Shown: positions 5,420 through 24,023 of the stretch, piece by piece
Numbering within the stretch: position 1 is the first letter of the stretch
Layout: each line of letters starts with the position of its first letter
IMG/VR virus record: IMGVR_UViG_3300031902_000051
Location: 1 to 24,504 of that record
Source of the DNA: a virus
Length of the DNA stretch: 24,504 bases
Strand: one strand, 5' to 3'
The notes under the pieces: model-generated
The model's database searches: none
Told to the model about the DNA's origin: nothing
Seen by the model: only the letters and a program-made list of their open reading frames with translations
Position numbers and translations under genes: made by a program

Positions 5420-6316
5420 ATGAGTGGCTCAAGTTCAAGTAATCAAGGAATGAATATTTATGGGAATAACTCCCAAAATTCCCGCTCAGGTGGTAGTACA
5501 TTTGGGCAGGATGTATTCAATAGCGGTGCATTAAATAACCTATATAGTGGTGCTCAAAATCTATATAACCAAGGCGTTAACCAAAGCCAAGGGATGGTGC
5601 CAGGTGCCGTTAATTTCCAAAATAAACAAGCCCAAGGTGCGGCTACTGCCAATCAAGGTATGCAACAAGGCGGTGTTTATGGTGGATTAGGTATTGGCAA
5701 TCAGTTAATGAGTTCATTGCAGCAATCTCAGAATACCCCTTCTGCTACCAGCCAAACCTATGCAGATATAATGGGAGGCCAAGGGAATAATTATGCTGAT
5801 GCCATGAAGAACCAGTATATCAAGGATGCTAATCGAACACAGCAAAACATGATGTCAAACCTGGATGCTAGGGCCGCAGGTACTGGTATGACAGGTAGTT
5901 CACGGCAAGGTGTTTCCCAAGGTATTGCAGAGCGTGGTATTAATGACGCCCTGCAAAGTAACCTGGCTCAAACAGGATACAATACATTTGATAAAGATTT
6001 ACAGAATAAGCTGAACATTGCCCAGCAAGCGGATACCAATAACTTTAACCGTCAAAACTTAATGTCAGGTATGCTAGGACAGCAACAGAATACTGTTAAC
6101 CAAGGCATTAACAATACGGGTGCTGTCCAAGGTTACGGAATGGGGCAGTTCAATGCAGCGAACGCACCTTGGCAGCAAGCCCAGAATTATCAAGGCGTGA
6201 TAGGTGCTCCAACTGTGCTTAACTCTGGTAATAGTTTTAACCAGGGGCAAGGTACATCTACTGGTTGGGGAGCTGGCCAGAATAGCGGAAGTTCTAAAGG
6301 ATCAGGATTATTGTAA
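5420..6316 (+). CDS. Gln/Asn/Gly-rich structural protein
   Basis: This 298-aa protein of strongly biased composition (Gln, Asn, Gly, Ser) has almost no hydrophobic core at either end. A central helical part (about residues 120-200) contains DARAAGTGMTGSSRQGVSQG, then I-A-E-R-G-I-N-D-A-L-Q-S-N-L. A motif of this kind (G-S-S-R-Q-G-x-x-x-G-I-A) recurs in virion proteins that precede the DNA-ejection genes in many podoviruses. Its position between the GNAT-like protein and the cupin fits an internal or tail-associated structural protein. Function is unknown. The start is one base after the previous stop, and its TAA overlaps the next ATG (TAATG). The low complexity means similarity searches should be masked. 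Confidence 0.6.
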   Translation: MSGSSSSNQGMNIYGNNSQNSRSGGSTFGQDVFNSGALNNLYSGAQNLYNQGVNQSQGMVPGAVNFQNKQAQGAATANQGMQQGGVYGGLGIGNQLMSSLQQSQNTPSATSQTYADIMGGQGNNYADAMKNQYIKDANRTQQNMMSNLDARAAGTGMTGSSRQGVSQGIAERGINDALQSNLAQTGYNTFDKDLQNKLNIAQQADTNNFNRQNLMSGMLGQQQNTVNQGINNTGAVQGYGMGQFNAANAPWQQAQNYQGVIGAPTVLNSGNSFNQGQGTSTGWGAGQNSGSSKGSGLL

Positions 6317-6744
6317 TGAATACTGAACTTGCCCATATAGAAAAGATAGATAAGTTAAGCCGCTATCTTAAAGAGAACTTTGCAGAACCAGATATAGAAA
6401 TTAATCACTTCTTTATACCAGGTGTTTATGTACGTGCAGGATTTTTACCTGCTGATAGTGTATTGACAGGAAAAATACATAACTATGAGTGTATTAACAT
6501 AGTTGCAAAAGGACAGATATGTGTGGCTACCAAAGAAGGATTTGATACATTGAATGCAGGTGATATTTTCAGAACACCCGCAGGCACTAAGAAAGCAGGT
6601 TATGTTATTGAAGATACTGTATTTATTACTGTGCATGCATGTGATAAGACTGAGATTGCTGATGTAGAAGATTATTTATCAAGTGATACTTATGACGAGT
6701 ATCTTACTAAAGTAAGGGGGCTGGAATGTTCATCGATGCAATAG
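6316..6744 (+). CDS. Phage cupin-fold protein
   Basis: The 142-aa product has a single small beta-barrel (cupin) pattern: HFFIPGVYVRAGFLPADSVL, then T-G-K-I-H-N-Y-E-C-I-N-I-V-A-K-G, then AGDIFRTPAGTKKAGYV and V-F-I-T-V-H-A. Proteins of this pattern are common in phage virion modules. Only some of the usual metal-ligand histidines are visible (H in K-I-H), so I do not claim an enzymatic activity. A structural or assembly role is inferred from the neighbours. The end overlaps the following Gly/Ala-rich gene by 19 bases, and the start overlaps the previous stop by one base. Confidence 0.75.
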   Translation: MNTELAHIEKIDKLSRYLKENFAEPDIEINHFFIPGVYVRAGFLPADSVLTGKIHNYECINIVAKGQICVATKEGFDTLNAGDIFRTPAGTKKAGYVIEDTVFITVHACDKTEIADVEDYLSSDTYDEYLTKVRGLECSSMQ

Positions 6745-7286
6745 CTGCAATGGGTAGTGCACTAGGCGGAGCAGCCGGAGGAACTGCCGCTGGTGCGGGT
6801 GCTGGTTCTGCATTAGGGGCAGGTACAGGTGCAGCGCTAGGCGGTACAGCTGCGGGTGGTGCAGCTACTGGCATTGGTTCTGCTGTAGGCTCTGCTATAA
6901 CACCTGCCATGTCATCTTTAGGCACAGCAGCGAGTGCAGCCCCGGCTGCAGAAGGCATTGGTGCAGCGGGTGGTGCGGCGGGATTTGGTAGTCCTGCGGC
7001 AAGTGCAGCAGCCGCTCCCGCAGCAGGTGGTGGTGCAAGTACTGGTATTATGGATTCTGTAATGGGTAAGATGGGTGGGCAAGGAGGCGGAGGTGGTGGA
7101 GACCTACAAATGATAGGCCAACTTCTATCAAAGTCTAAGCACTCTGGCTTAAATGCAGGAACACCACAACCTTTGAATATGCAACAAGGAATGCAGGGCT
7201 ACGTTAATGCAGGTGATCCAGGGCAAGCAGAGCAGGAGCCTATGGATATTAATGGATTTATTTCACAAATAATGGGGAAACGGTAA
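6726..7286 (+). CDS. Gly/Ala-rich hydrophobic virion protein
   Basis: The first 110 residues or so of this 186-aa protein are almost entirely Gly, Ala, Ser and Thr with many small-xxx-small patterns, a composition suited to inserting into or crossing membranes. The C-terminal part is polar (Q-M-I-G-Q-L-L-S-K-S-K, then EPMDINGFISQIMGKR). Proteins like this often sit beside ejection proteins in podoviruses and may help build the channel through the cell envelope. That role is inferred. The GC-rich composition also produces a long false frame on the other strand (6707-6958). It overlaps the cupin gene by 19 bases and the next gene by one (TAATG). Confidence 0.65.
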   Translation: MFIDAIAAMGSALGGAAGGTAAGAGAGSALGAGTGAALGGTAAGGAATGIGSAVGSAITPAMSSLGTAASAAPAAEGIGAAGGAAGFGSPAASAAAAPAAGGGASTGIMDSVMGKMGGQGGGGGGDLQMIGQLLSKSKHSGLNAGTPQPLNMQQGMQGYVNAGDPGQAEQEPMDINGFISQIMGKR

Positions 7287-8509
7287 TGGCTGATAATATG
7301 GAAGGATTAGGTACAATGTTGTCCTTTCTAGGGCAAGGTTCTAATGCGGGGGGTGCTGAACCATTGCCTGATAGTGGACCGCCCTCAGGTTTCTTTCAGC
7401 AACCACAAGCACCACAAGCGCAACAACCTGGTGGTAGTGGTATACTAAAAGGTATTTTAGGAAATTTGGCAAGTTCATATGTAACCAATAAGCTACAGAC
7501 ACATATGGATAATGCGGACGCTAAGGAGCAAGGCGCCCAGTTAAGCGGTGTTATAACAGAGCAGCTTAAGGCAACACCTAAAGACAGCCCATTTCATGAG
7601 TTCTTAACAAATAATAAACGCCTGGTAGGCTCTAGTAACCCTGCTCTAGTAAAAGCTGGGCTTAAAGCTTACGGAGATTACACAAGCAGTGTGGCTAACA
7701 ATTTACAGACTACAGCGGAGCAAAAGAATGTAGCTGACCCTAAAGTTATGGAGATGCAAACCCGTAAAGACAACGTAGGCTCTATACCTGCAGGCATGAC
7801 ACGTGATGCTCAAGGTAACCTACAGTATAGCCCTATGGTTACCGGGGGTAATTATGGGGATGTTATTGCACAACGTGCATTAGAGCAGCGTATGGCGGTT
7901 ACTCCGGTGCAGGCTAAACAACTAGAACTAGCACAAGCCTCCTCTGACCGCGCCGAAAAACGTAGCGCGATTGAGGATGCCCGGTATGAACGCTCATTAA
8001 TCAAAGAAATTCCCGCTAACCATAGAGCCTCCTATACGGGCAATCTATCTTCAATCAACCAAATAGATGAAGCTTTAAAAGCGGTGCAAGAACGTCCCGA
8101 ATCGTTTGGATTAAAGATGATAGGGGGCGACAAAATTAACCAGCGCCTTGACCCTGAAGGTACAAAATACCGGGCGGCTATATCTCAGATTGCCAGTGCC
8201 AAAAGGCACGATATTTCGGGTGCCGCAGTTAGTCCAACAGAAGATAAATATTTGCAACCCTTTTTGCCGAATGAGACGGATACTCCAGAGGCTATTCAAA
8301 AGAAATTGTTAACGCTTCGTGAACAATATGCAAACACAAATAACGAGATCGGCAGTATTTATAAAGAGGGATACCGTGGTCAGTTACCGGCAATACCTAA
8401 AGACCCGATTACTTTACAAAATGAAGCAAAACAAGAAGCTGCTGACAAGGCATTGCTTAATGCCGACCAGGAAGCGGCTTACCAAAATTATCTAAAGGGG
8501 CGGAAATGA
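7286..8509 (+). CDS. Probable DNA ejection / internal virion protein
   Basis: This 407-aa protein starts with a low-complexity Gly/Pro/Gln-rich region (about residues 1-60, with QQPQAPQAQQPGG), then a largely alpha-helical body. A distinctive stretch near residue 300 reads ASAKRHDISGAAVSPTEDKY followed by L-Q-P-F-L-P, which resembles a motif found in predicted ejection proteins of podoviruses. The C-terminus is rich in charged helices (EAKQEAADKALLNADQEAAY). No catalytic motif is seen. It most likely leaves the capsid with the DNA. It is coupled to the lysozyme-domain gene by a 4-base ATGA overlap. Base composition rises in GC from about 7900 onward. Confidence 0.6.
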   Translation: MADNMEGLGTMLSFLGQGSNAGGAEPLPDSGPPSGFFQQPQAPQAQQPGGSGILKGILGNLASSYVTNKLQTHMDNADAKEQGAQLSGVITEQLKATPKDSPFHEFLTNNKRLVGSSNPALVKAGLKAYGDYTSSVANNLQTTAEQKNVADPKVMEMQTRKDNVGSIPAGMTRDAQGNLQYSPMVTGGNYGDVIAQRALEQRMAVTPVQAKQLELAQASSDRAEKRSAIEDARYERSLIKEIPANHRASYTGNLSSINQIDEALKAVQERPESFGLKMIGGDKINQRLDPEGTKYRAAISQIASAKRHDISGAAVSPTEDKYLQPFLPNETDTPEAIQKKLLTLREQYANTNNEIGSIYKEGYRGQLPAIPKDPITLQNEAKQEAADKALLNADQEAAYQNYLKGRK

Positions 8510-10674
8510 AATCTGTGGATGTTGTTAACTACTTTATGCAGAAAGGGTATAAACCCCACCAGGCGGCGGCGATTGCCGGAAATTTAACGCAAGAATCCAG
8601 CCTAAATCCTGAAGCGATTAATAAGAAGTCGGGTAATTTTGGCCTTGCCCAATGGGGGAACTCAAGGAAAAGAGCACTTAACGACTATGCGGCCAGACAA
8701 GGCAGCCATGCGGCTGACCCCGGCACTCAGCTTGATTTTATCGACCACGAACTGAACACCACGGAACGCAAGGCAAAAGCCAAGCTGTTGGCCACAACAA
8801 ACCTTGCCGATGCCACTAATGCGTTCAGTGATCACTATGAGCGTGCTGGTGCTGCAGAAAAGAACAACTCTCGACGCTTATCGTTTGCGGAAAAAGCCCT
8901 TAACTATGTGATACCCACAGCTTCGGCAAGCGAGGAGCCTTATCAGGGACCCGCTAAACCTAAACTGAGTAGAGCAGAATGGTTAGCGCAGCAAGCAGCG
9001 CAGCAACCCCAAGAAACCCCTGCCCCTGAAAAAAAGTTAAGTCGGGCGGAGTGGTTTGCGCAACAACAAGGGGCGCAATCGCCTGCTCCACCCGAGTCCG
9101 GCATGGCCGCTAAACGCGCCGCCATGGTAGGGGTTCCGGTGGGCGATGAAAATACGGCAGAAAAGCGGCATGGGGACATGTCTTCTGCGCGTTATGTACT
9201 AAATGCTATTCGTGGTGTGGGAAATGCTGCATTAACAGACGCGGGAAACATTTTAAATATTCCTAATTCTCTGGATGAAGTAGTCCCTGCAATTGGGGAT
9301 ACTTTAAAAGGGTTGGCGGATACCCCTCAAGTACAGGCACAAAATCCTGGGAATGCTGTGGGTAAATTTTTAATGGATACGGGGGCTCAAATACCTGCGG
9401 GGATGGCTGGTAAGTTGTTTGGAGCAGTAGGCCCTATCGGACAGGCAATGACTAGGGCGGGGGCTTCTGGGTTAACAGAAGGTGCCACTGCAAGCGGAGA
9501 TATGATTGACCGTGCTAAAGCAGCGGGTTTAGGCATATTGGGTTCTCTTGGGGGGGAAGCCTTGGGGGCTGGGATAAGTACAGCTTTACGCCCTTTTAAA
9601 AATGAATTAGATGCTACGGCAAAAGCGCTTATTCCAAAAGCCAAATCTATGGGGATGAAACTAAATGCAGCAGATACTTCAGGTAATAAAGCACTAGTTG
9701 CAGCTAACTCTGCGCTGGATACTTTGCCTACCAGTTCTAGTATGCAGAAGGCCGCTGCGGATGCAAAGCAGGAGGCATGGACTAAAGCACTTTATGCGGA
9801 AGGTGGGCATACTTTTGACCCGACAACCCCTGGAAACTTAGGGAGAATGAAAGAAGCTATTGGTAATGAGTACAAGGCTATTACTTCTAATAACACATTA
9901 GTCGTTGACCCTTTATTAAAGAAACATCTTGCAGATATAAAACAGCAATATAGCCAGTTTTTACCTACAGATCAGAAGCGTATTGTTAACAACTACATTT
10001 CCGATATAACCAGTAAGACGGATATGCCTGGGGATATTTACCAAGCAACACGTTCTAAAATTGATAAAGCCGCAAGTGGTTATAAAGTATCCGATCCTAA
10101 CGCTATGGATGCCCTTAAAGGTGTCCGGGGTGCATTGGATTCTGCAATGGAACGTAATATGTCCCCTGAGGATGCTTTACGGTTAAGAACTGCAAATAAG
10201 AATTATATGGTACAAAAGCATATCGAAAAAGCGATTGACCCTGTAACTGAGCAGGTTTCCCCTGCCAAATTAATGAATGAAGTAACTAGGCGTGACCCCA
10301 ATATTGCCAAGTATGGACAAGGCCCACAAGGATTGGTTGATATTGCTAAAGTGGGTAAGCAATTTATAACACCTAAATTAGGGGATTCTGGCACTGCACA
10401 AAGATCATATATGATGCAGGCTTTAACTAATCCATGGTCTGGGGCCTTAGCTGGGTTTAGTGCCGCTAACATTCCCGGTGCTGTTGCAGGTGGATTAAGT
10501 TCACTACTATTGCCTAAAGCAGCAAGTAAGGTGCTACAGAATGGGGGTAACAAATGGTTAACGCAAGGGTTAGGGGATATGGAAAAAACTATCCCTGGAC
10601 TTGGTAACATGACAAGGGAAGGTTTACTTAAAGAAATAACCCGTCAAGCGGGTATTGCAGGGTCTCGAAAGTAA
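8506..10674 (+). CDS. Internal virion protein with N-terminal phage lysozyme-like domain
   Basis: Residues about 1-130 of this 722-aa protein match the phage tail lysozyme domain: AAAIAGNLTQESSLNP, with the likely catalytic Glu in T-Q-E-S, then NFGLAQWGNSRKRAL. This would cut peptidoglycan during DNA entry. A linker follows with two copies of K-L-S-R-A-E-W-(L/F)-A-Q-Q separated by Pro/Gln-rich sequence. A Gly/Ala-rich, membrane-active-looking region comes next at about residues 280-370 (LGILGSLGGEALGAG), then a helical C-terminal half with another Gly/Ala-rich segment near residue 650. The layout is like the large ejection proteins of podoviruses. The 3' end overlaps the polymerase gene on the other strand by 31 bp. 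Confidence 0.75.
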   Translation: MKSVDVVNYFMQKGYKPHQAAAIAGNLTQESSLNPEAINKKSGNFGLAQWGNSRKRALNDYAARQGSHAADPGTQLDFIDHELNTTERKAKAKLLATTNLADATNAFSDHYERAGAAEKNNSRRLSFAEKALNYVIPTASASEEPYQGPAKPKLSRAEWLAQQAAQQPQETPAPEKKLSRAEWFAQQQGAQSPAPPESGMAAKRAAMVGVPVGDENTAEKRHGDMSSARYVLNAIRGVGNAALTDAGNILNIPNSLDEVVPAIGDTLKGLADTPQVQAQNPGNAVGKFLMDTGAQIPAGMAGKLFGAVGPIGQAMTRAGASGLTEGATASGDMIDRAKAAGLGILGSLGGEALGAGISTALRPFKNELDATAKALIPKAKSMGMKLNAADTSGNKALVAANSALDTLPTSSSMQKAAADAKQEAWTKALYAEGGHTFDPTTPGNLGRMKEAIGNEYKAITSNNTLVVDPLLKKHLADIKQQYSQFLPTDQKRIVNNYISDITSKTDMPGDIYQATRSKIDKAASGYKVSDPNAMDALKGVRGALDSAMERNMSPEDALRLRTANKNYMVQKHIEKAIDPVTEQVSPAKLMNEVTRRDPNIAKYGQGPQGLVDIAKVGKQFITPKLGDSGTAQRSYMMQALTNPWSGALAGFSAANIPGAVAGGLSSLLLPKAASKVLQNGGNKWLTQGLGDMEKTIPGLGNMTREGLLKEITRQAGIAGSRK

Positions 10675-12862: not shown

Positions 12863-13822
12863 TTAAACACGTAACCCAATAATAACACCCCGCACGCGCT
12901 CCCCAAAGAAGGGGCAGGGTTTAGGGTAAAAACTCCAATCAATGCTGGTAGCAAACCCCTTTAACAGTTGCAACATATTTATGATATAAACCGCTTCCCC
13001 AATGTCGCTGTGTAATTCATAATTTGCACCCTCGTCCGTAACTTGGTGCGTGCTGATAACATTGTGGTTAACATACACGCGGTTAAGCTTGTTGTCTGTG
13101 AAGGGTTTAATGGTTTCAAGTGCTTCAAATAATTCATCGTCAATAACTACAGGTGAACTTTTCTTATTTAACACTGCACGAATATCAGGCCACGTTGTTG
13201 TAAGCAGCTGAGAACGCAACCAGCGCTCCTCATTATAAAGGAACGTTATTGCATTATCCAAAACAAGTGCGCCTACAGGTTCTTCCCCTATACGAATCAT
13301 TTCCTTAATAGCCACTTTAGGAATGTTGACAGGGGAAGGGATGTTTGAACCTAGCCAGTATTCGGCCAGGATGATATTATTGGTAGCGAAAGCCGATTGC
13401 CCATCAAGCAGTATGCCCTCACACCAAGGTCTTGAGGCATCGGTGCCGATAATGGGGTACAGGGTTTTAAAGGCAGCAAGCACATCTTTGCCGTTTATTT
13501 CAAACGGTTCACCCTCGGCAATCACATGTGGAGTTTCCCCATCAATGCAGTTAACAAAAGCTTTGAACTTACCACTAGTAATACTTAACCTCCCTGCGGC
13601 TGTCAGGGACATTTTAACCTCGTCCTTACAATTCCCTATAGCCTTTACTAACTCCTCACCACGAGGCTTACAGGGGGGTATTTTAATGGGTATGGGGGTA
13701 CATAGGGCAATGACTCCATTGTGACCCCGTATAGTATCGTTTTCAATGACGAAGTGAGTCAGTGCAGGTATGAAGTCTTTAGTTGATATGGAGCCTTTAA
13801 CAAACTTAAGGGCGTTTAACAT
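12863..13822 (-). CDS. Sliding clamp (DnaN-like DNA polymerase processivity factor)
   Basis: This 319-aa protein resembles a bacterial beta clamp of somewhat reduced length (about 366 aa is usual). The N-terminal domain opens with L-K-F-V-K-G-S-I-S-T-K-D-F-I-P-A-L and then I-R-G-H-N-G-V-I-A-L. The second domain has CEGILLDGQSAFATNNIILA, matching the clamp pattern in which a strand, T-D/N and A follow each other. L-T-T-T-W-P-D-I-R-A-V-L matches the clamp's F-P-D-Y-R-x-V-L. The C-terminus ends in a strand like the clamp's peptide-binding pocket edge (R-G-V-I-I-G-L-R-V). It would hold the family B polymerase on DNA. The ATG overlaps the dpdA stop (TAATG), so it is co-expressed with DNA modification. 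Confidence 0.75.
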   Translation of the reverse strand: MLNALKFVKGSISTKDFIPALTHFVIENDTIRGHNGVIALCTPIPIKIPPCKPRGEELVKAIGNCKDEVKMSLTAAGRLSITSGKFKAFVNCIDGETPHVIAEGEPFEINGKDVLAAFKTLYPIIGTDASRPWCEGILLDGQSAFATNNIILAEYWLGSNIPSPVNIPKVAIKEMIRIGEEPVGALVLDNAITFLYNEERWLRSQLLTTTWPDIRAVLNKKSSPVVIDDELFEALETIKPFTDNKLNRVYVNHNVISTHQVTDEGANYELHSDIGEAVYIINMLQLLKGFATSIDWSFYPKPCPFFGERVRGVIIGLRV

Positions 13823-14745
13823 TAGAATAATTCCTGAACTTCTATTTTAAAATTTTTATTCTTATGGTCTTTATTTATTTGTTCGTTTATTTTTATAAAA
13901 CTATGGATATTATAAGCGGCACGACTTTCTCTGTTTATAGATAATTTTTCACTATCAAAACCTTGCTCTTTTATCATTTTAAAAATGTAATCTTTTTCAA
14001 TATCCGTATATGTTAAAACGTGTTTTCCATTATCAAATAATTTTGGCGATCTTTTAGAAATAGGTAATATCCAATTATTAGGGGTGACAATATTTCCAAA
14101 TTTTGCAAGTTGAATCCAAGTTGAAGAATCTACACTTTGCCAAGGGTAATTTTTCATAATTGAATATGAAGTAATGCCGAATCCATGTACTTTTATTTTA
14201 GGGTATCCTTTTCCATCTAAAAGGTATTTTCTCCATATTCTATCTAACCATATACAGAGCTGTTTGTCCGATACCCCTACCATCCCACCTAAGGCCAAAT
14301 ATTCATAATTTTTGATATAATATTCTAAGTACCTTTCATCTTCTCCTACATGAAAGCAAGGGATAGGTTTAACCCCCAATGATTCCATCCATTTTTGATT
14401 TTGATAGGTCAATAAAGCATCCCCTATTCCATCTAATACTGAGGCCATAACTATCCCGTCTTCTACTCTGATAATGTCTAGATTACGTTTAATGTAATCA
14501 CAGTAGGTGGGCAGGTCTATTGATACCCCTAAGGTATAAGCTGAGAAAGCGCCCGAATCCAAGAATATTTTATGACCATTATTCCTTATGGTATCTACTA
14601 CACTCTGTTTATTTATATAATGATAACTTTCAAGAATATTCGGACATTCATCAATTGTCTTTTTTTCTATGTAATTTAAGTTTTCATAAGCTGAAGTACC
14701 GCGGCAAACTCCACTGGTAAATATAGCCGCGTTATAAATTTTCAT
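13822..14745 (-). CDS. dpdA: DNA guanine transglycosylase, DpdA-type (TGT fold)
   Basis: This 307-aa protein has the hallmarks of the tRNA-guanine transglycosylase superfamily: FLDSGAFSA (first catalytic Asp, residues 60-68), CFHVGED, LALGGMVG (base-binding loop, near 151-158), K-V-H-G-F-G-I-T and SVDSSTW (second, nucleophile-type Asp). Phage DpdA proteins with this outline exchange guanine in DNA for a 7-deazaguanine. Four preQ0-pathway genes directly upstream in the same operon make DNA the likely substrate. Its base composition is strikingly AT-rich compared with its neighbours, which suggests separate acquisition. The last five residues, VQELF, resemble a clamp-binding peptide. Start and stop overlap the flanking genes by one base each. 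The DpdA subfamily cannot be assigned by eye. Confidence 0.88.
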   Translation of the reverse strand: MKIYNAAIFTSGVCRGTSAYENLNYIEKKTIDECPNILESYHYINKQSVVDTIRNNGHKIFLDSGAFSAYTLGVSIDLPTYCDYIKRNLDIIRVEDGIVMASVLDGIGDALLTYQNQKWMESLGVKPIPCFHVGEDERYLEYYIKNYEYLALGGMVGVSDKQLCIWLDRIWRKYLLDGKGYPKIKVHGFGITSYSIMKNYPWQSVDSSTWIQLAKFGNIVTPNNWILPISKRSPKLFDNGKHVLTYTDIEKDYIFKMIKEQGFDSEKLSINRESRAAYNIHSFIKINEQINKDHKNKNFKIEVQELF

Positions 14746-15656
14746 TATTTCGTTATAGCCAAAAACTCAGCGCGAGCAGCATCGCTTTCTTTGATGACGC
14801 CTCGCAAAGCTGTGGTTACTGTTTCACTATTGGCTCGACCCACGCCACGACTTTCCAAGCACATGTGCCTAGCATTAATGTAGACACCCACGCCTAAAGG
14901 TTGTAAATGTTCCATCAAGGCATCGGCAATCTGGCAAGTAAGCCGTTCCTGTACCTGCAAGCGTCGAGCGAATATATCCACAAGTCTATCAATTTTAGAT
15001 AACCCGACAATCTTACCGGAAGGAATATAGGCGACTGTACAGGTTCCAAAAATATCCGCAAGGTGGTGTTCGCACTTAGAATGAATTATTATATCCTTTC
15101 TAACTATCATCTGGTCATACCCTTCCGCCCCATCCTCAAACACTTTAAGCACATCTGCAGGGCTCTTATCATAACCGCTACACCAGTGCCGCCAAGCTTT
15201 CGCTACCCGTGCAGGCGTTTCACGCAACCCCTCCCGGTTAACGTCTTCTCCCATGTATTGGAGCAATCGTTGAATGTTGTGCTCAATGGTTTCGTGGTTG
15301 TCAGTAGCTCCTTGTTCCCAAGGGAAGACAACCCACTTTCCGCGAAATTTGTTATTAGGGTCTCGCTTGTCAAACAGTGTATAAAATGGTTTGGCGCCAT
15401 AGGCTTTCCGATAAGCTTCTGTTGTCTTACCGCTATCAATTAAGTCGTCAATAAAGCAATCTGCCATGTCTGGATGGTCAACTATACTAATGTTGTCAAC
15501 ATAGCGTCTAAGCAGGTACGCAACCGGGATTCCCCCTCTTGGTATTGCATAAACCTTTATAGGGTTTTTACGTGCAAAGTTCATTAGAACCCGTTGGCTC
15601 ATGGAGCGAACAAGAAGATCAATATTGCCGTGGTTCAGTATAATATGGCCTCCCAT
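14745..15656 (-). CDS. folE: Phosphoribosyltransferase-GTP cyclohydrolase I fusion
   Basis: This is a two-domain protein of 303 aa. Residues 1 to about 118 form a Gpt-like phosphoribosyltransferase: VYAIPRGGIPVAYLL, the PRPP loop F-I-D-D-L-I-D-S-G-K-T (68-78) and WVVFPWEQG, like the end of xanthine-guanine PRTase. Residues about 120-303 are a complete FolE: GEDVNREGLRETPARVAKAW, zinc ligands in C195-E-H-H198 and C266 (HMCLESRGV). FolE opens GTP to dihydroneopterin triphosphate, the first step to preQ0. The start is placed at 15656, where the minus strand reads GGAGGGTTAAAATG, an excellent ribosome-binding site that also contains the queD stop. A start at 15704 would lack this and overlap queD by 47 bases. 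Confidence 0.9.
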   Translation of the reverse strand: MGGHIILNHGNIDLLVRSMSQRVLMNFARKNPIKVYAIPRGGIPVAYLLRRYVDNISIVDHPDMADCFIDDLIDSGKTTEAYRKAYGAKPFYTLFDKRDPNNKFRGKWVVFPWEQGATDNHETIEHNIQRLLQYMGEDVNREGLRETPARVAKAWRHWCSGYDKSPADVLKVFEDGAEGYDQMIVRKDIIIHSKCEHHLADIFGTCTVAYIPSGKIVGLSKIDRLVDIFARRLQVQERLTCQIADALMEHLQPLGVGVYINARHMCLESRGVGRANSETVTTALRGVIKESDAARAEFLAITK

Positions 15657-15657
15657 T

Positions 15658-16077
15658 TTAACCCTCCAAAGTGTAGGTGGCACTACACTTGCGCGTCTCT
15701 TCAAACGTCACGGAAACTAAAGTAACCCCGGTTCCGCGTAGTTGCTGAGGCCCTATAACGTTCACAAGGTATTCTGCCATTGCTTCCGCGGTAGGATTAA
15801 AGGTTAGCACTACAACACTGAAGTCAATTTCTTGTAACTTATAAGATAGTGGGTCCTTCTCCCATACTAGGAATCTATGATCCCAATTATCTTCTACCCA
15901 CAGTGCAAGCCTGGATTTAATAACGGAAAAGTCCATAACCCTTCCTAAACTATCCAATTTTCCCTTAACTGTAAAAGTAACCCGACCATTATGCCCGTGA
16001 ATTCTAGAGCAGACTGATTCATGCCCGTGTACCCGGTGGCCGTAACTAAAATCATGGCATCTTGTTGCCGTTATCAT
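15658..16077 (-). CDS. queD: 6-carboxy-tetrahydropterin synthase QueD
   Basis: This 139-aa protein is close to the usual QueD length of about 120 aa. Zinc ligands are H14 (YGHRVHG), H27 and H29 (RIHGHNG), and the catalytic Cys is C23 in V-C-S-R-I-H-G-H. Further family marks are MDFSVIK, N-W-D-H-R-F-L (catalytic Asp-His), NPTAEAMAEYL and the substrate-binding Glu in F-E-E-T. It converts dihydroneopterin triphosphate to 6-carboxy-tetrahydropterin, the second step to preQ0. Its ATG overlaps the queC stop (ATGA), and its stop lies inside the ribosome-binding site of the PRTase-FolE fusion, so expression of the steps is tightly linked. All key residues are present. Confidence 0.93.
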   Translation of the reverse strand: MITATRCHDFSYGHRVHGHESVCSRIHGHNGRVTFTVKGKLDSLGRVMDFSVIKSRLALWVEDNWDHRFLVWEKDPLSYKLQEIDFSVVVLTFNPTAEAMAEYLVNVIGPQQLRGTGVTLVSVTFEETRKCSATYTLEG

Positions 16078-16871
16078 TGTATTAGCTCCTTACGGTAGTT
16101 TTCAGTACAAGGTAGGTCCATTAAACCCTCTTTTACTGCACGCAATACCAGCGGATCGGGTAATCCAGCCTCCTCAAACCCCGCTGCACGCAATACGTTA
16201 GCATGGTTCATATCTGTAGGTGGGTACTTCCCGTCATAGCTTGTATGGCTATATGCTAACGCTTCCCAACAACCCACAAGCCCTTTAGCTTTAATAACGC
16301 TCTCTGCTTTAGTAAAGTGCAACAAGGGGGCATGAATAGTTAGCCATTTATCTTTGGTGAGGTCATTGCCCAGTGCATAATTAATAAAAGTTTCCGTTGC
16401 ATCAATAAAGCTTTCCCGGCAGTCAGGATAATTTGCATTATCCTCTTCACAGACACCTGTTGCAATAACATCACAACCCAACGCCACAGCACGATTGGCT
16501 ACAATGGTAAGGAACAAAGCATTTCGCATGGGAACAAAAGTTAATTCAACGCGGTTACCGATAACGTCCGCCATTTGCGCAGCGTTTGTGTATTGTTCTA
16601 AAGGGTTGTTACTGGTTAAGGGTGAAACAGACACTAAGCAGTTGGGAACCTGTATAACTTCATGCGATATAACCCCTGCCATTTCTGCGATAATCTTTGC
16701 AGCTTGTATTTCCAATTGATGACGTTGCCCATAGTCAAAAGTTATTGCATGTATTTCGCCATAACGCTGTTTTGCCATATACAGAACGGTTGTTGAATCT
16801 TGCCCTCCACTGAGGAGGACCAATGCACGTTTTTTATTTTTCATGTAATCAAAAGTCATTTTATTTTTCAT
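16074..16871 (-). CDS. queC: QueC-family 7-cyano-7-deazaguanine synthase lacking the zinc cysteines
   Basis: This 265-aa enzyme of the PP-loop ATPase type has SGGQDS at 21-26, ITFDYGQRHQLE, FVPMRNALF and ATGVCEEDNANYPDCR, all usual for QueC. QueC turns 7-carboxy-7-deazaguanine into the amide (ADG) and then the nitrile (preQ0) with ATP and ammonia. The C-terminal zinc site is different: where E. coli QueC has four Cys with spacing 9-3-3, this protein has S211, T219, N222 and N225. The surrounding sequence (TSYDG, NVLRAAGFEEAGLPDP) still aligns. The site is therefore lost by substitution, not truncation. The start at 16871 overlaps the queE stop (ATGA); M-K-N-K is repeated at residues 1-4 and 10-13, so ATG at 16844 is an alternative. 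Confidence 0.9.
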   Translation of the reverse strand: MKNKMTFDYMKNKKRALVLLSGGQDSTTVLYMAKQRYGEIHAITFDYGQRHQLEIQAAKIIAEMAGVISHEVIQVPNCLVSVSPLTSNNPLEQYTNAAQMADVIGNRVELTFVPMRNALFLTIVANRAVALGCDVIATGVCEEDNANYPDCRESFIDATETFINYALGNDLTKDKWLTIHAPLLHFTKAESVIKAKGLVGCWEALAYSHTSYDGKYPPTDMNHANVLRAAGFEEAGLPDPLVLRAVKEGLMDLPCTENYRKELIQ

Positions 16872-17560
16872 GGTAGGTCACATATTTTATGAATTTGAAG
16901 GCACAGTTTGTAACCGTGCTTGATACAACTGTTAACCACAGCGCGTTGGGCCATGCGGTTGAAGAAGTGCGATCCAGCGTCCAATGGTTGTAAGTACACG
17001 TTAGCGTTCTTAGGAGCCCTGTATAAGCCAACAGGACCACGTAAGTCGCCCAGCTGAGTATTGGGCAACCCGTCGCCAGGGTCTAGGTTGGTGTGGTTAC
17101 CCACATACTTATAAACGTCAATATAGGGGATAATCTCACGGTTAAGGGTGGGAGTTTTGGGGCTGCATACAATAGTTAAAGCGTAGTGATCGAACGGGAG
17201 TTTTTGATAAAGCGTTCCGTTTGTCTCAATTTGCACGCGGAATTTGTGCAGCAATAAAGAAGCAGTTAAGGCGGTTAGTGCAGATTGCCGAAAAGGTTCA
17301 CCTCCTGTGATAATTACAAGGTGCCCCTTACTGTGGTTACATAGGCCTTGTACATGTTCTACCAGTTCGTTGACCGTTTGGTTATAACGTCCGGTTGTGT
17401 AGTTTGTATCACAAGCTCTACACATAATGTTACAGCCGGCCATTCTAATAAAGACAGCGCGTTCACCTGCAAACGGTCCTTCTCCTTGCAGGGTTAAAAA
17501 TACAGAATGGACGTCAATACATTCTTCCTCTACTTTGTGTTCTGGGGGTTGTAAGTTCAT
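16868..17560 (-). CDS. queE: 7-carboxy-7-deazaguanine synthase QueE (radical SAM)
   Basis: The 230-aa product has F-L-T-L-Q-G-E-G-P at 21-29 and the iron-sulphur motif C43-x3-C47-x2-C50 (GCNIMCRACDT), the canonical CX3CX2C. VIITGGEPFRQ supplies the SAM-binding G-G-E-P, and V-Q-I-E-T-N-G-T is the usual later strand. It carries out the ring contraction of carboxy-tetrahydropterin to 7-carboxy-7-deazaguanine. It is the first pathway gene of the operon, with a hairpin leader at 17579-17600 and the Lys-rich gene upstream. Its stop overlaps the queC start by 4 bases. It looks intact and of normal length. Confidence 0.94.
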   Translation of the reverse strand: MNLQPPEHKVEEECIDVHSVFLTLQGEGPFAGERAVFIRMAGCNIMCRACDTNYTTGRYNQTVNELVEHVQGLCNHSKGHLVIITGGEPFRQSALTALTASLLLHKFRVQIETNGTLYQKLPFDHYALTIVCSPKTPTLNREIIPYIDVYKYVGNHTNLDPGDGLPNTQLGDLRGPVGLYRAPKNANVYLQPLDAGSHFFNRMAQRAVVNSCIKHGYKLCLQIHKICDLP

Positions 17561-19820: not shown

Positions 19821-20459
19821 TTAAGCTTGTACCCAAGGTGGGGTTTTCCCGAGAGCTGTTGCTTTTACTTCCTCTATTGGGAGCTTGGTTTGTACAGGAT
19901 TAACATCTGCCCAGGCGGGCGCTTTTATTTCTTCCTCCATCACCGCAGGTTGACCCTGTTGCCAGGGTTGGGCGGGAGGGCTAACTTGGGCACGTTCACC
20001 CATAGGTCTCGCTGCATCTGGAATATTTAACGTGGGTTGTGCGGGGGCTTGCTCTTTATAATATCCGGTAATATTATTACGATCCGGGTACATGGTCCCA
20101 TCCCCTCTTGAGCCTCCAATTTCAATGCCTACGTCAATATTAAGAGGACGGTTATGCAGCAATCCCAATTGGGCATCATCAATCGTCATGACCCCGATAC
20201 TATGGCATATTGCACTTAATTGGCCCTGGCCTATGCGTTGACATACTTCATTCTGATTAATAACGTTGATATTGGAATAAATACGGCGGTTATGGAACTC
20301 CCCGCCTAAAATTGTAAACTCCAAAGCTAGTATTAAACCTAACCCGCTTTTAGTAGTTTTTATTTCAGTTTTAGTTATGGACGCCCGATATATTCCTTTA
20401 GGGATAGGACTTGACCCTTGGTCGGGTAAGACTTGTGTTGCATCAAATTTAAATGCCAT
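19821..20459 (-). CDS. DUF669-family phage protein
   Basis: The N-terminal two thirds of this 212-aa protein fit the DUF669 pattern: PIPKGIYRASITKTEIKTTK, then S-G-L-G-L-I-L-A-L-E-F-T-I, N-R-R-I-Y-S-N-I-N-V, GQGQLSAICHSIG and L-N-I-D-V-G-I-E. Asn and Tyr residues near residue 130 end the domain. The C-terminal third is a Pro/Gln-rich, probably disordered tail. DUF669 proteins occur in phage recombination and replication modules, and an ssDNA-related role is suspected. The ATG has a good site (AAGGAAA). It is related in outline to the 18313-18876 product, which has a different tail. The gap upstream holds no clear promoter. Confidence 0.75.
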   Translation of the reverse strand: MAFKFDATQVLPDQGSSPIPKGIYRASITKTEIKTTKSGLGLILALEFTILGGEFHNRRIYSNINVINQNEVCQRIGQGQLSAICHSIGVMTIDDAQLGLLHNRPLNIDVGIEIGGSRGDGTMYPDRNNITGYYKEQAPAQPTLNIPDAARPMGERAQVSPPAQPWQQGQPAVMEEEIKAPAWADVNPVQTKLPIEEVKATALGKTPPWVQA

Positions 20460-20513: not shown

Positions 20514-20675
20514 TTATTTACAATCTTTATAGTTATGCCGCTCATTGCGTAAGGCGGGCTGACAAAATAGAATATGCATAAGTATTTTTCCACTGTATAC
20601 AAAATTTGGTTTTTTAACCCGAATTCCATATACATCGTTTTTATTTTCTTCGTTTTTACCTGTTGGATTTGGCAT
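20514..20675 (-). CDS. Hypothetical protein, 53 aa
   Basis: This short gene lies in the space before the DUF669 gene. Its ATG (20675) follows a strong ribosome-binding site (AAGGATAAGGG) inside the end of the Cys-rich gene, which it overlaps by 20 bases in another frame. The product begins MPNPTGKNEENKNDVYGIRV and continues K-K-P-N-F-V-Y-S-G-K-I-L to a basic, Cys-containing C-terminus (NERHNYKDCK). No motif or family is recognised. A competing frame in the same interval (20486-20635) has no such ribosome-binding site. Without this gene the interval would be a 196-base gap, unusual in this genome. Confidence 0.6.
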   Translation of the reverse strand: MPNPTGKNEENKNDVYGIRVKKPNFVYSGKILMHILFCQPALRNERHNYKDCK

Positions 20676-20904
20676 TACCCTTATCCTTACATTTATTTAA
20701 AGTTGCATTAGGACGTGCATCACAAGGCGTACACATCCCCCGCTTTTGTCTTTCATAAGCGATCCATATTTCAACTGGGTTACACTTACTATCTGGTTTT
20801 GTACACTCTGCTATCTCTGTACAGAATGTGCCTGGTTTTGACTCTGAAAATGATGCATTAGCCACTGCCGATATTCCCATTGCTATCAGCAATATCATTT
20901 TCAT
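20656..20904 (-). CDS. Small secreted Cys-rich protein
   Basis: The 82-aa product has a clear signal peptide: short basic start, hydrophobic core, and a likely cut after A-V-A-N-A (near residue 17). The mature part of about 65 residues has six cysteines (F-C-T, E-C-T, K-C-N, M-C-T-P-C and N-K-C), an even number compatible with three disulphides in the periplasm. The C-terminus is basic. No family is recognised. Its ATG overlaps the stop of the octapeptide-repeat gene upstream (ATGA), so it is made together with that protein. Periplasmic targets or superinfection exclusion are possible, but this is only inference. Confidence 0.68.
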   Translation of the reverse strand: MKMILLIAMGISAVANASFSESKPGTFCTEIAECTKPDSKCNPVEIWIAYERQKRGMCTPCDARPNATLNKCKDKGNAKSNR

Positions 20905-21485
20905 TTCAATAACTCCATAATATCCTCAGGAATTTCTGTCATCCATTCAGGTTTGTTCTTAGCAATCCATTCAGGCCTGTTATTAGCCATCCATTCAGGT
21001 CTATTCTTAGCCATCCAATAAGACATGTTATCTGCCATCCATTCAGGTCTATTCTTAGCCATCCAGTCAGTCCTACTAGCTGCCATCCATTCAGGTCTAT
21101 GATCTGCCATCCAATCAGTCTTATTTCTAGACATCCAATTAGGTCTATTATCTGCCATCCAGTCAGGTCTATTATTAGCCATCCATCCAGGTCTATGATC
21201 TGCCATCCAATAAGGTCTATTGTCAGCCATCCAGTCAGGTCTATGGTATGCCATCCATCCAGGTCTATGATCTGCCATACATTCAGACCTATGATCTGCC
21301 ACCCAATAAGGCTTGTTATACGCCATACAGTCAGGCCTGTTGTATGTCATCCAGTCAAGTCTATTATCAACCATCCAGTTAGGCCTGTTATTAGCCATCC
21401 AATCAGGTCTATTATCAGCCATCCAATCAGGTCTTTTTTCAGCTATAATCAACAGTTGCTCATGGGCTAAATCTATCATTCTCAT
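20901..21485 (-). CDS. Octapeptide-repeat protein A (21 units)
   Basis: Almost the whole of this 194-aa protein consists of 21 tandem eight-residue units with consensus R-P-(D/E)-W-M-A-(D/N)-(N/H) (residues 18-185). A 17-residue cap starting M-R-M-I-D-L-A-H-E-Q-L precedes them, and KPEWMTEIPEDIMELLK closes the protein. Positions 1, 2, 4, 5 and 6 are nearly constant; 3, 7 and 8 vary. A twin with 17 units lies immediately upstream. Start and stop overlap the flanking genes by 4 bases, and GGAG lies eight bases before the ATG. Trp every eight residues suggests a solenoid fold. I recognise no family. The long open frame on the other strand (21099-21470) is a by-product of the repeat. Confidence 0.85.
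   Translation of the reverse strand: MRMIDLAHEQLLIIAEKRPDWMADNRPDWMANNRPNWMVDNRLDWMTYNRPDCMAYNKPYWVADHRSECMADHRPGWMAYHRPDWMADNRPYWMADHRPGWMANNRPDWMADNRPNWMSRNKTDWMADHRPEWMAASRTDWMAKNRPEWMADNMSYWMAKNRPEWMANNRPEWIAKNKPEWMTEIPEDIMELLK
20931..21434 (-). repeat. 24-bp tandem coding repeat, 21 copies
   Basis: In-frame direct repeats of 24 bp encode the octapeptides of repeat protein A. A typical plus-strand unit contains GCCATCCATTCAGGTCTATT. Copies differ at a few bases each, mostly in codons 3, 7 and 8. Unit length is a multiple of three, so gain or loss of units keeps the frame. There are no spacers. Confidence 0.95.
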
Positions 21486-21970
21486 TTCAATAACTCCATA
21501 ATATAATCAGGAATTTCTGTCATCCATTCAGGTTTGTCCTTAACAATCCATCCAGGTCTATTCCTATCAATCCAGTCAGGTCTATTATCAACCATCCAAT
21601 CGGGTCTATTATCCGCCATCCATTCAGGTCTATTATCTGCCATCCAGTCAGGTCTATTATTAGCCATCCATCCAGGTCTATGATCTGCCATCCAGTCAGG
21701 TCTATTATCAGCCATCCATTCAGGCCTAAGGTATGTCGTCCATTCAGGTCTATGATCTGCCATCCATTCAGGCCTGTTATTAGCCATCCATTCAGGTCTA
21801 TTCTTAGCCATCCAGTCAGGTCTATGATATGCTATCCATTCAGGTCTATGATCTGCCATCCATTCAGTCCTATTATCCGCCATCCAGCTAGGTCTATTGT
21901 CAGCCATCCAGTCAGGTCTATTATCAGCTAGGGTTACCAGTTGCTCATGGGTTAAATCTATCATTTTCAT
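21482..21970 (-). CDS. Octapeptide-repeat protein B (17 units)
   Basis: This 162-aa paralogue of the product of 20901-21485 has a 17-residue N-cap (M-K-M-I-D-L-T-H-E-Q-L-V-T-L-A), 17 octads of the R-P-x-W-M-A-x-N type (residues 18-153) and the same C-cap (KPEWMTEIPDYIMELLK). Unit identity is higher than in protein A, and Glu is more common at position 3. Both caps are conserved between the twins, which argues for a defined folded protein and a gene duplication rather than random slippage. It begins 17 bases after a predicted terminator (21987-22017), with AGGTGATGAA as ribosome-binding site. Function is unknown. A binding solenoid, an inhibitor of a host protein or an anti-defence factor are all open options. 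Confidence 0.85.
   Translation of the reverse strand: MKMIDLTHEQLVTLADNRPDWMADNRPSWMADNRTEWMADHRPEWIAYHRPDWMAKNRPEWMANNRPEWMADHRPEWTTYLRPEWMADNRPDWMADHRPGWMANNRPDWMADNRPEWMADNRPDWMVDNRPDWIDRNRPGWIVKDKPEWMTEIPDYIMELLK
21512..21919 (-). repeat. 24-bp tandem coding repeat, 17 copies
   Basis: This is the same 24-bp unit as at 20931-21434, encoding the octads of repeat protein B. A three-unit block (RPDWMADH, RPGWMANN, RPDWMADN) is closely matched in both arrays, which suggests exchange or homogenisation between them. Confidence 0.95.
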
Positions 21971-21986
21971 TTCATCACCTATTACT

Positions 21987-22017
21987 AAAAAAGAGGGTGG
22001 GTAATTAATCCACCCTT
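21987..22017 (-). terminator. Rho-independent terminator
   Basis: On the minus strand GGGTGG, a nine-base loop and CCACCC are followed directly by TCTTTTTT. It stops transcripts of the small-gene operon after the Lar-like gene. The U tract ends only about 17 bases before the start of repeat gene B, with no clear promoter between, so the repeat genes need read-through or antitermination, or a promoter hidden in the Lar-like gene. Confidence 0.8.
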
Positions 22018-22060: not shown

Positions 22061-22264
22061 TTATTTTGTTTGCAAGTAAGCTTCTGTTTGATAGCCTAAT
22101 TGGTTTTCACCTGGGCGATTATTCCACAATGCAAGTGCATGGCCAGCGTCATTACCGCTAGGGCCAAGTGTATTGCAATCCAAACACTGGTAATATTTTT
22201 CTAATGCTATTACCGTGAAATTTACCCTATGGTTACCACAGAAGGGGCAGGCTTTAACTTTCAT
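22061..22264 (-). CDS. Lar-like zinc-binding protein (restriction alleviation family)
   Basis: The 67-aa product contains ACPFCGNHRVNF, Y-Y-Q-C-L-D-C-N-T-L-G-P-S-G and H-A-L-A-L-W-N-N-R. Two CxxC pairs and the final A-x-x-x-W-N-x-R are the signature of the Lar family, whose E. coli Rac member modulates type I restriction. Many phage members are untested, so an anti-restriction role is a family-based inference. It is the last gene before the terminator at 21987, and its ATG overlaps the stop of a 30-aa membrane peptide (ATGA). It has AGGTG as ribosome-binding site. Confidence 0.75.
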   Translation of the reverse strand: MKVKACPFCGNHRVNFTVIALEKYYQCLDCNTLGPSGNDAGHALALWNNRPGENQLGYQTEAYLQTK

Positions 22265-22353: not shown

Positions 22354-22439
22354 AGTTGATGTAAACTCGCAAAAATAATGGCTACAAAACATATGACCGT
22401 TACCAACAGAGCATCTATTAAAACATCTTTATTTTTCAT
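22350..22439 (-). CDS. Tiny membrane peptide, 29 aa
   Basis: The product has a charged start (M-K-N-K-D) and one transmembrane segment (LLVTVICFVAIIFASL). GAGGG lies eight bases before the ATG, which overlaps the stop of the lipoprotein gene (ATGA). Its own stop overlaps the next ATG. Small single-span peptides in early phage operons can inhibit host functions or help lysis, but nothing here identifies the role. Confidence 0.55.
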   Translation of the reverse strand: MKNKDVLIDALLVTVICFVAIIFASLHQL

Positions 22440-22672
22440 TGGTATAGCCCTCTATATGGCATTTCTGGGTTGGCATTCTGTAAGTCAATTTGGTTAACCA
22501 CAGACATATTGCGGGTTGGTTGGCCTGCACTTAGACCGATATTGTAGGCATTCTGTGTGCTATTGCTGTTTGCTTTTGCAGCCAGAAATGCCATAGCAAA
22601 ATCACCTACAGTGTACGGGGAGTTGGCACAACCTGTGGTTAACAGGAGGGTTGTAATAATTAACGTTTTCAT
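22436..22672 (-). CDS. Small lipoprotein, 78 aa
   Basis: The start is set at the ATG at 22672, where AAAGGAG precedes by a proper distance and the frame opens with a signal sequence, M-K-T-L-I-I-T-T-L-L-L-T-T-G-C. The lipobox L-T-T-G-C predicts lipidation at Cys15; Asn at +3 and Ala at +2 favour the outer membrane. A start at 22765 would bury this signal. The mature part is short and Asn/Gln-rich (SVVNQIDLQNANPEMPY). It is not Pro-rich like Rz1 spanins. Superinfection exclusion is one possible role, by analogy with other phage lipoproteins, but this is inference. Confidence 0.72.
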   Translation of the reverse strand: MKTLIITTLLLTTGCANSPYTVGDFAMAFLAAKANSNSTQNAYNIGLSAGQPTRNMSVVNQIDLQNANPEMPYRGLYQ

Positions 22673-23192: not shown

Positions 23193-24023
23193 CTATCTTT
23201 TGTAAATATCGATTCCACAGCTTTCATGCATTGCATGTGCCAAGTAATTCCAGCCTTGCTCTTTGGGGATATTAATCTCACCCTCCATGCCAAAGCGGTT
23301 ACCTGCAATGTAACTGGGGGTACGACTTAACCCTAACACACGGCCCCTGTTTTCACTGATACCTTTACTAATGCCGTGTTGCTCACTAATTATTAAAGGT
23401 TCATGCAGGAAGAAGATACCATCCAGCCATTGCAGGAACAACTCGCGCTTGCCAAACGTTTTATAGTTCTTTGGACTGTGTAACTGGATATTCCAACTAG
23501 CATACTCACCTACCTGCGGATCGAGCATTTGATCGGCAAAGACGTGAGCCGTTAACACCACGTTAATCCCGTGTTGCAAAGCAAGGACATCCAGCATAGC
23601 AATAATTTCCATGAAGCGTTCGTTAGCAACATCAAAACCTTTTCCGTAACCCCCCAGGCAACTATTCATGGTAACCGACTTATTTAGACCTCCTTTATAG
23701 GTAGGGTCGCTTAACAGCACGCCCTCATGGATTAACCGTTCCAGTGCTGTGACACTGTCTATAACCACAGTTTTAAACGGGAACGAACCCTGTTTGCAAG
23801 ATGCGGTTATCTCGGTTAATAAGTCCACGAAGTTAATGTACTGGGTAACCATTGGAACGTGCTGTACTTCAACCCCTGCAAACCCGCTTTCAATCGGTAT
23901 AAGCAGTACACCGGGCGCACCGCATGTGAACGTTGTTTTACCAATCTTTTCAACACCCGCAACTGCAATGCGAACCCCTGCAAAGCTGTCAGCGGTGTTT
24001 TTAACTTGACTTAAAATGCTCAT
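23193..24023 (-). CDS. Sak4-like RecA-fold ATPase (recombination)
   Basis: This 276-aa ATPase has the Walker A motif GVEKIGKTTF (residues 23-32) and the Walker B strand TVVIDSVTAL (D89). VVLTAHVFAD is the usual sensor-like strand of RecA-fold phage ATPases. The outline (G-V-R-I-A-V-A-G at the start, a short core and no second domain) fits the AAA_24/Sak4 group, single-strand annealing or recombinase-like proteins of phage. It would work with the exonuclease and the DUF669-type proteins downstream. The start overlaps the previous stop (ATGA), with AAGGTGAAAG before it. Confidence 0.8.
   Translation of the reverse strand: MSILSQVKNTADSFAGVRIAVAGVEKIGKTTFTCGAPGVLLIPIESGFAGVEVQHVPMVTQYINFVDLLTEITASCKQGSFPFKTVVIDSVTALERLIHEGVLLSDPTYKGGLNKSVTMNSCLGGYGKGFDVANERFMEIIAMLDVLALQHGINVVLTAHVFADQMLDPQVGEYASWNIQLHSPKNYKTFGKRELFLQWLDGIFFLHEPLIISEQHGISKGISENRGRVLGLSRTPSYIAGNRFGMEGEINIPKEQGWNYLAHAMHESCGIDIYKR

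Follow-up and report, generated by a model that had tools for sequence, protein, structure and literature searches.

Two described repeats have an eight-residue unit with proline at the start of a helix: the ALTTAQ repeat (PF20080) and HeliScrew4 (PDB 9ZEM; 120 aa), whose sequence matches PF20080 (E=7.5e-25) and which, judging from its name and repeat, would be a screw of short helices. In mesothelin, a chain of short helices is wound into an ARM/HEAT-like solenoid (PMC10035497). In genes of mobile elements, Borg aaTRs are in-frame tandem units with a length that is a multiple of three and with a number that changes fast (PMC9879509). The window analyzed here, a virus record of 24,504 bases to which all positions refer unless another record is named, contains two adjacent genes, A and B, that are tandem paralogs of an unnamed family of phage-borne, stand-alone repeat proteins. 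The family occurs in several unrelated uncultured phages. We propose, with a probability of roughly 45%, that A and B encode expandable, predicted helical rods that would act as avidity-type binding scaffolds in a host-directed early role.

Two coupled octad genes and their family

Genes A and B are both on the minus strand and overlap by 4 nt (ATGA). They encode 21 and 17 octads, respectively, of the form R-P-x-W-M-A-x-N/H without interruptions, between a shared N-terminal cap (MxMIDLxHEQLxxxA...) and a shared C-terminal cap (KPEWMTEIPxxIMELLK). The ORFs, overlap, and unit counts agree with the twin coupled genes with common caps that an earlier note had described from the same DNA (table 1). 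As a correction to that note, gene A is also coupled through an ATGA to an 82-aa ORF. Overall identity between A and B is 72%. The two are colinear over approximately the first 14 units and, in the unit comparison, A has four additional octads ahead of an identical last octad, indicating a gene duplication followed by gain or loss of units.

Table 1. Features of the octad locus and its neighborhood in the window.
Feature	Position	Strand	Basis or remark
SSB-like protein (phrog_2300/6015)	19821..20459	-	Pocket border
82-aa secreted-type ORF	20656..20904	-	Start overlaps stop of A; no family match
Gene A, 194 aa, 21 octads	20901..21485	-	Start within stop of B (ATGA)
Gene A C-terminal cap PEDIMELLK and stop	20901..20930	-	
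Gene A octad array, 21 octads	20931..21434	-	
24-bp array	20940..21919		TRF
Gene A N-terminal cap, residues 1-17	21435..21485	-	
Gene B, 162 aa, 17 octads	21482..21970	-	Upstream of gene A; ORF list, unit comparison
Gene B C-terminal cap PDYIMELLK and stop	21482..21511	-	
Shine-Dalgarno-like GGAG, gene A	21494..21497	-	Within end of B
Gene B octad array, 17x RPxWMAxN/H	21512..21919	-	TRF, unit analysis
Gene B N-terminal cap, residues 1-17 (MKMIDLTHEQLVTLADN)	21920..21970	-	Kept in homologs
Shine-Dalgarno-like AGGTGA, gene B	21975..21980	-	
Terminator-like hairpin and T-rich tail	21999..22015	-	Just upstream of B; consensus match only
Lar-like restriction alleviation protein	22061..22264	-	PF14354, above cut-off
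78-aa lipoprotein-like protein	22436..22672	-	81% identical in related phage, there abutting octad gene
Sak4-like recombination ATPase	23193..24023	-	Other pocket border

Searches of 2.9 million viral contigs with degenerate patterns or BLAST, which more divergent members may escape, found octad proteins with caps, ranging in size from about 4 to 32 units, in six further lineages of uncultured viruses. Single octad proteins of 171, 109, and 61 aa are encoded on a 14-kb contig (L013), a 48.6-kb contig (L018), and a 375-kb record (L017). A 68.9-kb contig (L178) has two octad paralogs of 243 and 108 aa, and identical 190-aa proteins are present in two records (L199/L204). On a 46.7-kb contig (L006/L155), the gene crosses the contig end into its start and would encode about 273 aa if joined. 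The 375-kb record also has a second, frameshifted octad copy (L219/L223, about 4087-4241) beside a serine-recombinase/transposase-type cassette.

Family members follow one plan: an N-cap MKxxEL(T/S)xxQLxxIA, a number of octads that differs between A and B and between relatives, and a C-cap (D/E)(I/V)Px-x-I-x-x-L(L). In divergent members, the octad reads (R/Y/N/H)-P-(E/D)-W-M-(A/V)-x-N, with Arg at position 1 not conserved and positions 1, 3, and 7 the most variable; W is retained in 44 of 55 such octads, M in 39/55, N in 38/55, and P in 34/55. Octads of L178 and L204 are highly variable and mainly W, M, N, P, and A/V are kept, with the register intact.

The earlier note knew of no named family, and none was found. 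Neither the window proteins nor the related octad proteins match a family in Pfam, NCBIfam, or PADLOC, including the PADLOC models of known anti-phage defense families. PHROG gave no significant match over most of the protein, the best being to phrog_35407 (function unassigned) over 20 residues of the L018 protein only (E=7.6e-4). Neither the 50,697 named phage records nor the 72,556 plasmid records searched with patterns and BLAST contained a relative. When about 1,150 genomes of Gammaproteobacteria, Alphaproteobacteria, and Bacteroidota were searched with a profile, six matches emerged, but no unbroken frame among them followed the octad grammar, and a degenerate W-x7-W pattern applied to 84,980 species genomes returned, among the matches listed, only unrelated repeat frames. 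No relevant paper was found on the octad string, HeliScrew, or ALTTAQ.

Several candidates were rejected. Matches from tblastn in Bbp36 VR2 of BPP-1, a Porphyromonas phage, Acaryochloris, and Acinetobacter are low-complexity frame artefacts because the true frame in each encodes an unrelated repeat; the remaining tblastn matches in phages and plasmids, including Aeromonas, were dismissed by analogy with the four regions that were read. A match in Salmonella phage SPFM10 (E=2) was taken as chance. Two of the regions read have eight-residue repeats of their own. The true frame of Bordetella phage BPP-1 Bbp36 VR2 (L008:2987-3316), annotated as variable region 2, repeats GTATAGYR, unrelated in sequence to the octads. 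In Acinetobacter baumannii plasmid p3DB053, a small protein of (M/L)Y(T/S)GPGGG units (L007:3020-3454) is encoded close to toxin and antitoxin genes of the RelE/ParE type.

The octad arrays are a genuine protein family under purifying selection. Every Trp of B (17/17) and of A (19/19) is at residue 4 modulo 8, counted from zero, and none of 20,000 shuffles matched this register. Between units, pN/pS in the annotated frame is 0.50 (95% limits of 0.31-0.74) and 0.41 (0.30-0.54) for the two genes, with bootstrap limits that are indicative since unit pairs are not independent, versus about 0.7-1.9 in the remaining two sense frames. Although units of the L204 protein and of the two L178 proteins differ from each other with a pN of 0.43-0.53, Trp residues in these proteins are in phase in 18/18, 18/18, and 8/8 cases. 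Across family proteins, the counts in register are 17/17, 19/19, 18/18, 18/18, 8/8, 17/17, and 3/3, and 5/6 in a protein with its sixth Trp in a cap. Between-unit pN/pS is not below 1 in L018, which has few units, and is approximately 0.9 in L006. Four independent lines identify the arrays as protein: the Trp register, the frame-specific pN/pS, caps and phasing that outlast the DNA repeat in diverged homologs, and a syntenic ortholog. This agrees with the view taken earlier that selection acts on the protein rather than on a random satellite. A non-functional 24-bp satellite that is open by chance would account for the several further frames that are likewise open over long stretches of the array. 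But it is scarcely credible given frame-specific purifying selection, caps, start signals, and a register that persists in decayed repeats, with six other lineages having the same kind of protein.

Predicted fold and proposed binding surface

In the AlphaFold2 model of gene B, each octad comprises a seven-residue helix (P-x-W-M-A-x-N) and a single-residue break (mean pLDDT of 93, pTM of 0.74), with the C-terminal 25 residues less certain. The input alignment was shallow, at nine sequences, and pLDDT ranged from 76 to 93 across five models. AlphaFold2 can turn repeats into confident false solenoids, a bias mainly towards unrealistic beta-solenoids built from perfect repeats (PMC11795689); the fold modeled here is alpha and the octads are imperfect. 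The tight solenoid suggested in the earlier note holds in so far as a regular, tight repeat fold is predicted for B; the divergent L204 protein mostly shows the same pattern, at a pLDDT of only 69. Foldseek searches against the PDB gave no match at E<=10 for the confident gene B model and likewise none for the low-confidence L204 model. Octad proteins are probably folded rods of short helices.

We suggest the following architecture. In each octad, P-x-W-M-A-x-N would fold as a single short alpha-helix, and the remaining residue, R or another, would break it. With octads stacked one after another, the result would be an elongated helical rod, capped by MKxxELTxxQLxxIA at its N-terminus and by DIPxxIxxLL at its C-terminus. 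P, W, M, A, and N would be the conserved structural set, and positions 3 and 7, which are four residues apart on one helix face, would form with the break residue an exposed variable surface. Recombination would gain or lose whole 24-bp units, shifting the length of the rod while keeping the register. In the cytosol, the rod would most likely capture or block a host or defense component by repetition and avidity, a step proposed because the genes are in an early accessory pocket.

The same features bear on two other uses of a rod. With a strict unit register and, in each unit, two hypervariable positions on the same helix face, the proteins could also read a linear polymer (nucleic acid or peptide) module by module, as TALE or PUF proteins do, using a single unit or a few for each repeat of the ligand. 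We regard this as very improbable because octad proteins are neutral to acidic (net charges of -9, -3, and -14), divergent members do not conserve the Arg of position 1, and no match was found to TAL models (PF03377) or to PUF. DNA mimicry was set aside because the charge is merely mildly negative. Conversely, if length mattered and surface did not, the proteins could be self-assembling or structural rods or spacers, consistent with uniform octads and a unit number that varies from the 61 aa of L017 to the 273 aa or so of L006/L155. But A and B are encoded in the early/DNA module, far from structural genes, with no signal peptide or other fused domain, and positions 3 and 7 vary beyond the need of a passive spacer, making this alternative distinctly unlikely.

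A variable pocket between ATPase and SSB genes

The genome in the window resembles those of Queuovirinae, with a polymerase that is 46-49% identical to the polymerases of Seuratvirus VogelGryff and Pseudomonas phage JG054. Its gap between the ATPase and SSB genes holds the lipoprotein gene, the Lar-like gene, B, A, and the 82-aa ORF. Recognition of the lipoprotein, PF14354, and the Sak4-like ATPase bears out the placement claimed earlier, in an early module beside membrane, Lar-like, and recombination genes. In the related phage L199, in which the ATPase and QueE are 71-75% identical to those of the window, the same gap has the lipoprotein gene, a single octad gene (50-54% identical), and other small genes; the octad gene is thus a syntenic ortholog in the same pocket. 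In VogelGryff and MiCath, the ATPase and ssDNA-binding genes are followed directly by core genes and the octad pocket is absent. These differences in gap contents place the octad gene in a variable accessory pocket. Accessory pockets are the usual place of host-interaction genes.

Two other features of the pocket are of note. The 78-aa lipoprotein is unusually conserved for an accessory gene, as the neighboring SSB genes are 47-48% identical (table 1). The hairpin upstream of B may insulate the octad genes from the transcript that precedes them, but regional matches to the consensus do not exceed the number expected by chance.

Location also raises the possibility that the rod is a scaffold of the phage replication or recombination machinery, organizing SSB, the Sak4-like ATPase, or the polymerase instead of meeting a host target. 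The window genes lie between the Sak4-like ATPase and SSB genes. In L178, the octad genes are adjoined by HNH endonucleases and a DNA polymerase, with the two paralogs (6033-9849) flanking the polymerase gene and an HNH gene beside each. However, the close core modules of VogelGryff and MiCath lack an octad gene between ATPase and SSB, and neighbors in L018, L013, and L017 are not replication genes. We consider a replication scaffold unlikely.

The neighborhoods of other family members could alternatively reflect selfish or mobile cargo, lacking a fixed role and carried along with homing endonucleases and transposons. HNH genes accompany the L178 copies, a transposase as well as small lipoproteins are near the octad gene of L018, a serine recombinase is near that of L013, and the frameshifted copy in the 375-kb record is near its recombinase/transposase-type cassette. 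But no such gene is beside the copies of the window or L199, where position is conserved and selection is purifying, and mobile cargo is therefore an improbable explanation.

An avidity-type scaffold with a host-directed early role remains our preferred reading. It is location that points to host takeover or anti-defense, the roles considered plausible in the earlier note, and location does not name the target. A bolder version is conceivable but somewhat unlikely: a new class of counter-defense or host-takeover protein, a rod of one-helix octads, capped at either end and adjustable in length, that would bind a host component repeatedly through exposed variable positions, would have spread among unrelated phages, and would be retuned through gain or loss of 24-bp units.

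Elsewhere in the window, minus-strand genes at 13822-17560 encode a DpdA-like protein (phrog_887), FolE, QueD, QueC, and QueE, a near-complete set for 7-deazaguanine DNA modification. Within this region, a GTP cyclohydrolase I (14745-15704; PF01227, residues 140-317) has an N-terminal half weakly like phosphoribosyltransferases (PF00156, E=0.0017, below cut-off), possibly a fusion in the 7-deazaguanine pathway. On the plus strand, 8506-10674 encodes a protein of 722 aa in which a phage lysozyme domain (PF18013) at the N-terminus is joined to a long stretch that has no annotation.

Comparison with known repeat systems

If the predicted fold holds, octad proteins would be a binding scaffold that occurs in nature and is encoded by phages, with a helical repeat unit among the shortest, both caps defined, and surface positions free to vary. 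Protein engineers would gain a very compact modular rod, and phage biologists a family that can be traced and that likely faces the host.

When the family profile was compared with all PDB chains, the sole match below E=0.05 was HeliScrew4 (E=0.0044), aligned octad on octad, Pro on Pro, and Ala on Ala. This match is a lead to the fold that is independent of the structure model. The HeliScrew4 unit, L-S/T-P-E/D-Q/K-I/V/F-A-A, has the period of eight and, like the octad, a helix-start Pro and an acidic residue followed by hydrophobic residues and Ala. It differs in having Q for the W that is invariant in octads, L for N/H, and S/T for R. The probability from hhalign is 4.6-5%, and HeliScrew4 was absent from the results of Foldseek, the set of which may not include 9ZEM. 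Given the hhalign value and lack of a Foldseek match, we consider HeliScrew4 to be analogous in its period and in its chemistry at the helix start, not a proven relative. The ALTTAQ repeat likewise shares the eight-residue unit and helix-start Pro, but its residues differ, whereas octad proteins are small stand-alone phage proteins with their own caps; neither the window nor the related octad proteins match PF20080 even at E<=10. The octapeptide was at first thought to be undescribed. As a sequence family it is unnamed, but a period of eight with a helix-start Pro has precedent in ALTTAQ and HeliScrew4.

Other helical repeats are more distant. ARM/HEAT repeats, as in mesothelin, have two or three helices per turn versus one helix per eight residues in octads, and octad proteins have no sequence or Foldseek match to ARM, HEAT, or TPR alpha-solenoids. 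TAL effector repeats are also tandem helical units with two variable positions, but the units have two helices and 33-35 residues.

Octad genes resemble those with Borg aaTRs in having in-frame tandem units, in a mobile element, that change in number. However, Borg aaTRs are near-perfect, mostly disordered, and almost without Trp, whereas octads are rich in Trp, have diverged, evolve under purifying selection, and are predicted to fold. If the fold holds, in-frame tandem repeats in phage genomes can thus be old, folded, and selected and not just young and disordered as in Borgs. The octad architecture is a Trp-type, phage-borne, and stand-alone variant of period-8 helical repeats, of which there is at least one solved example.
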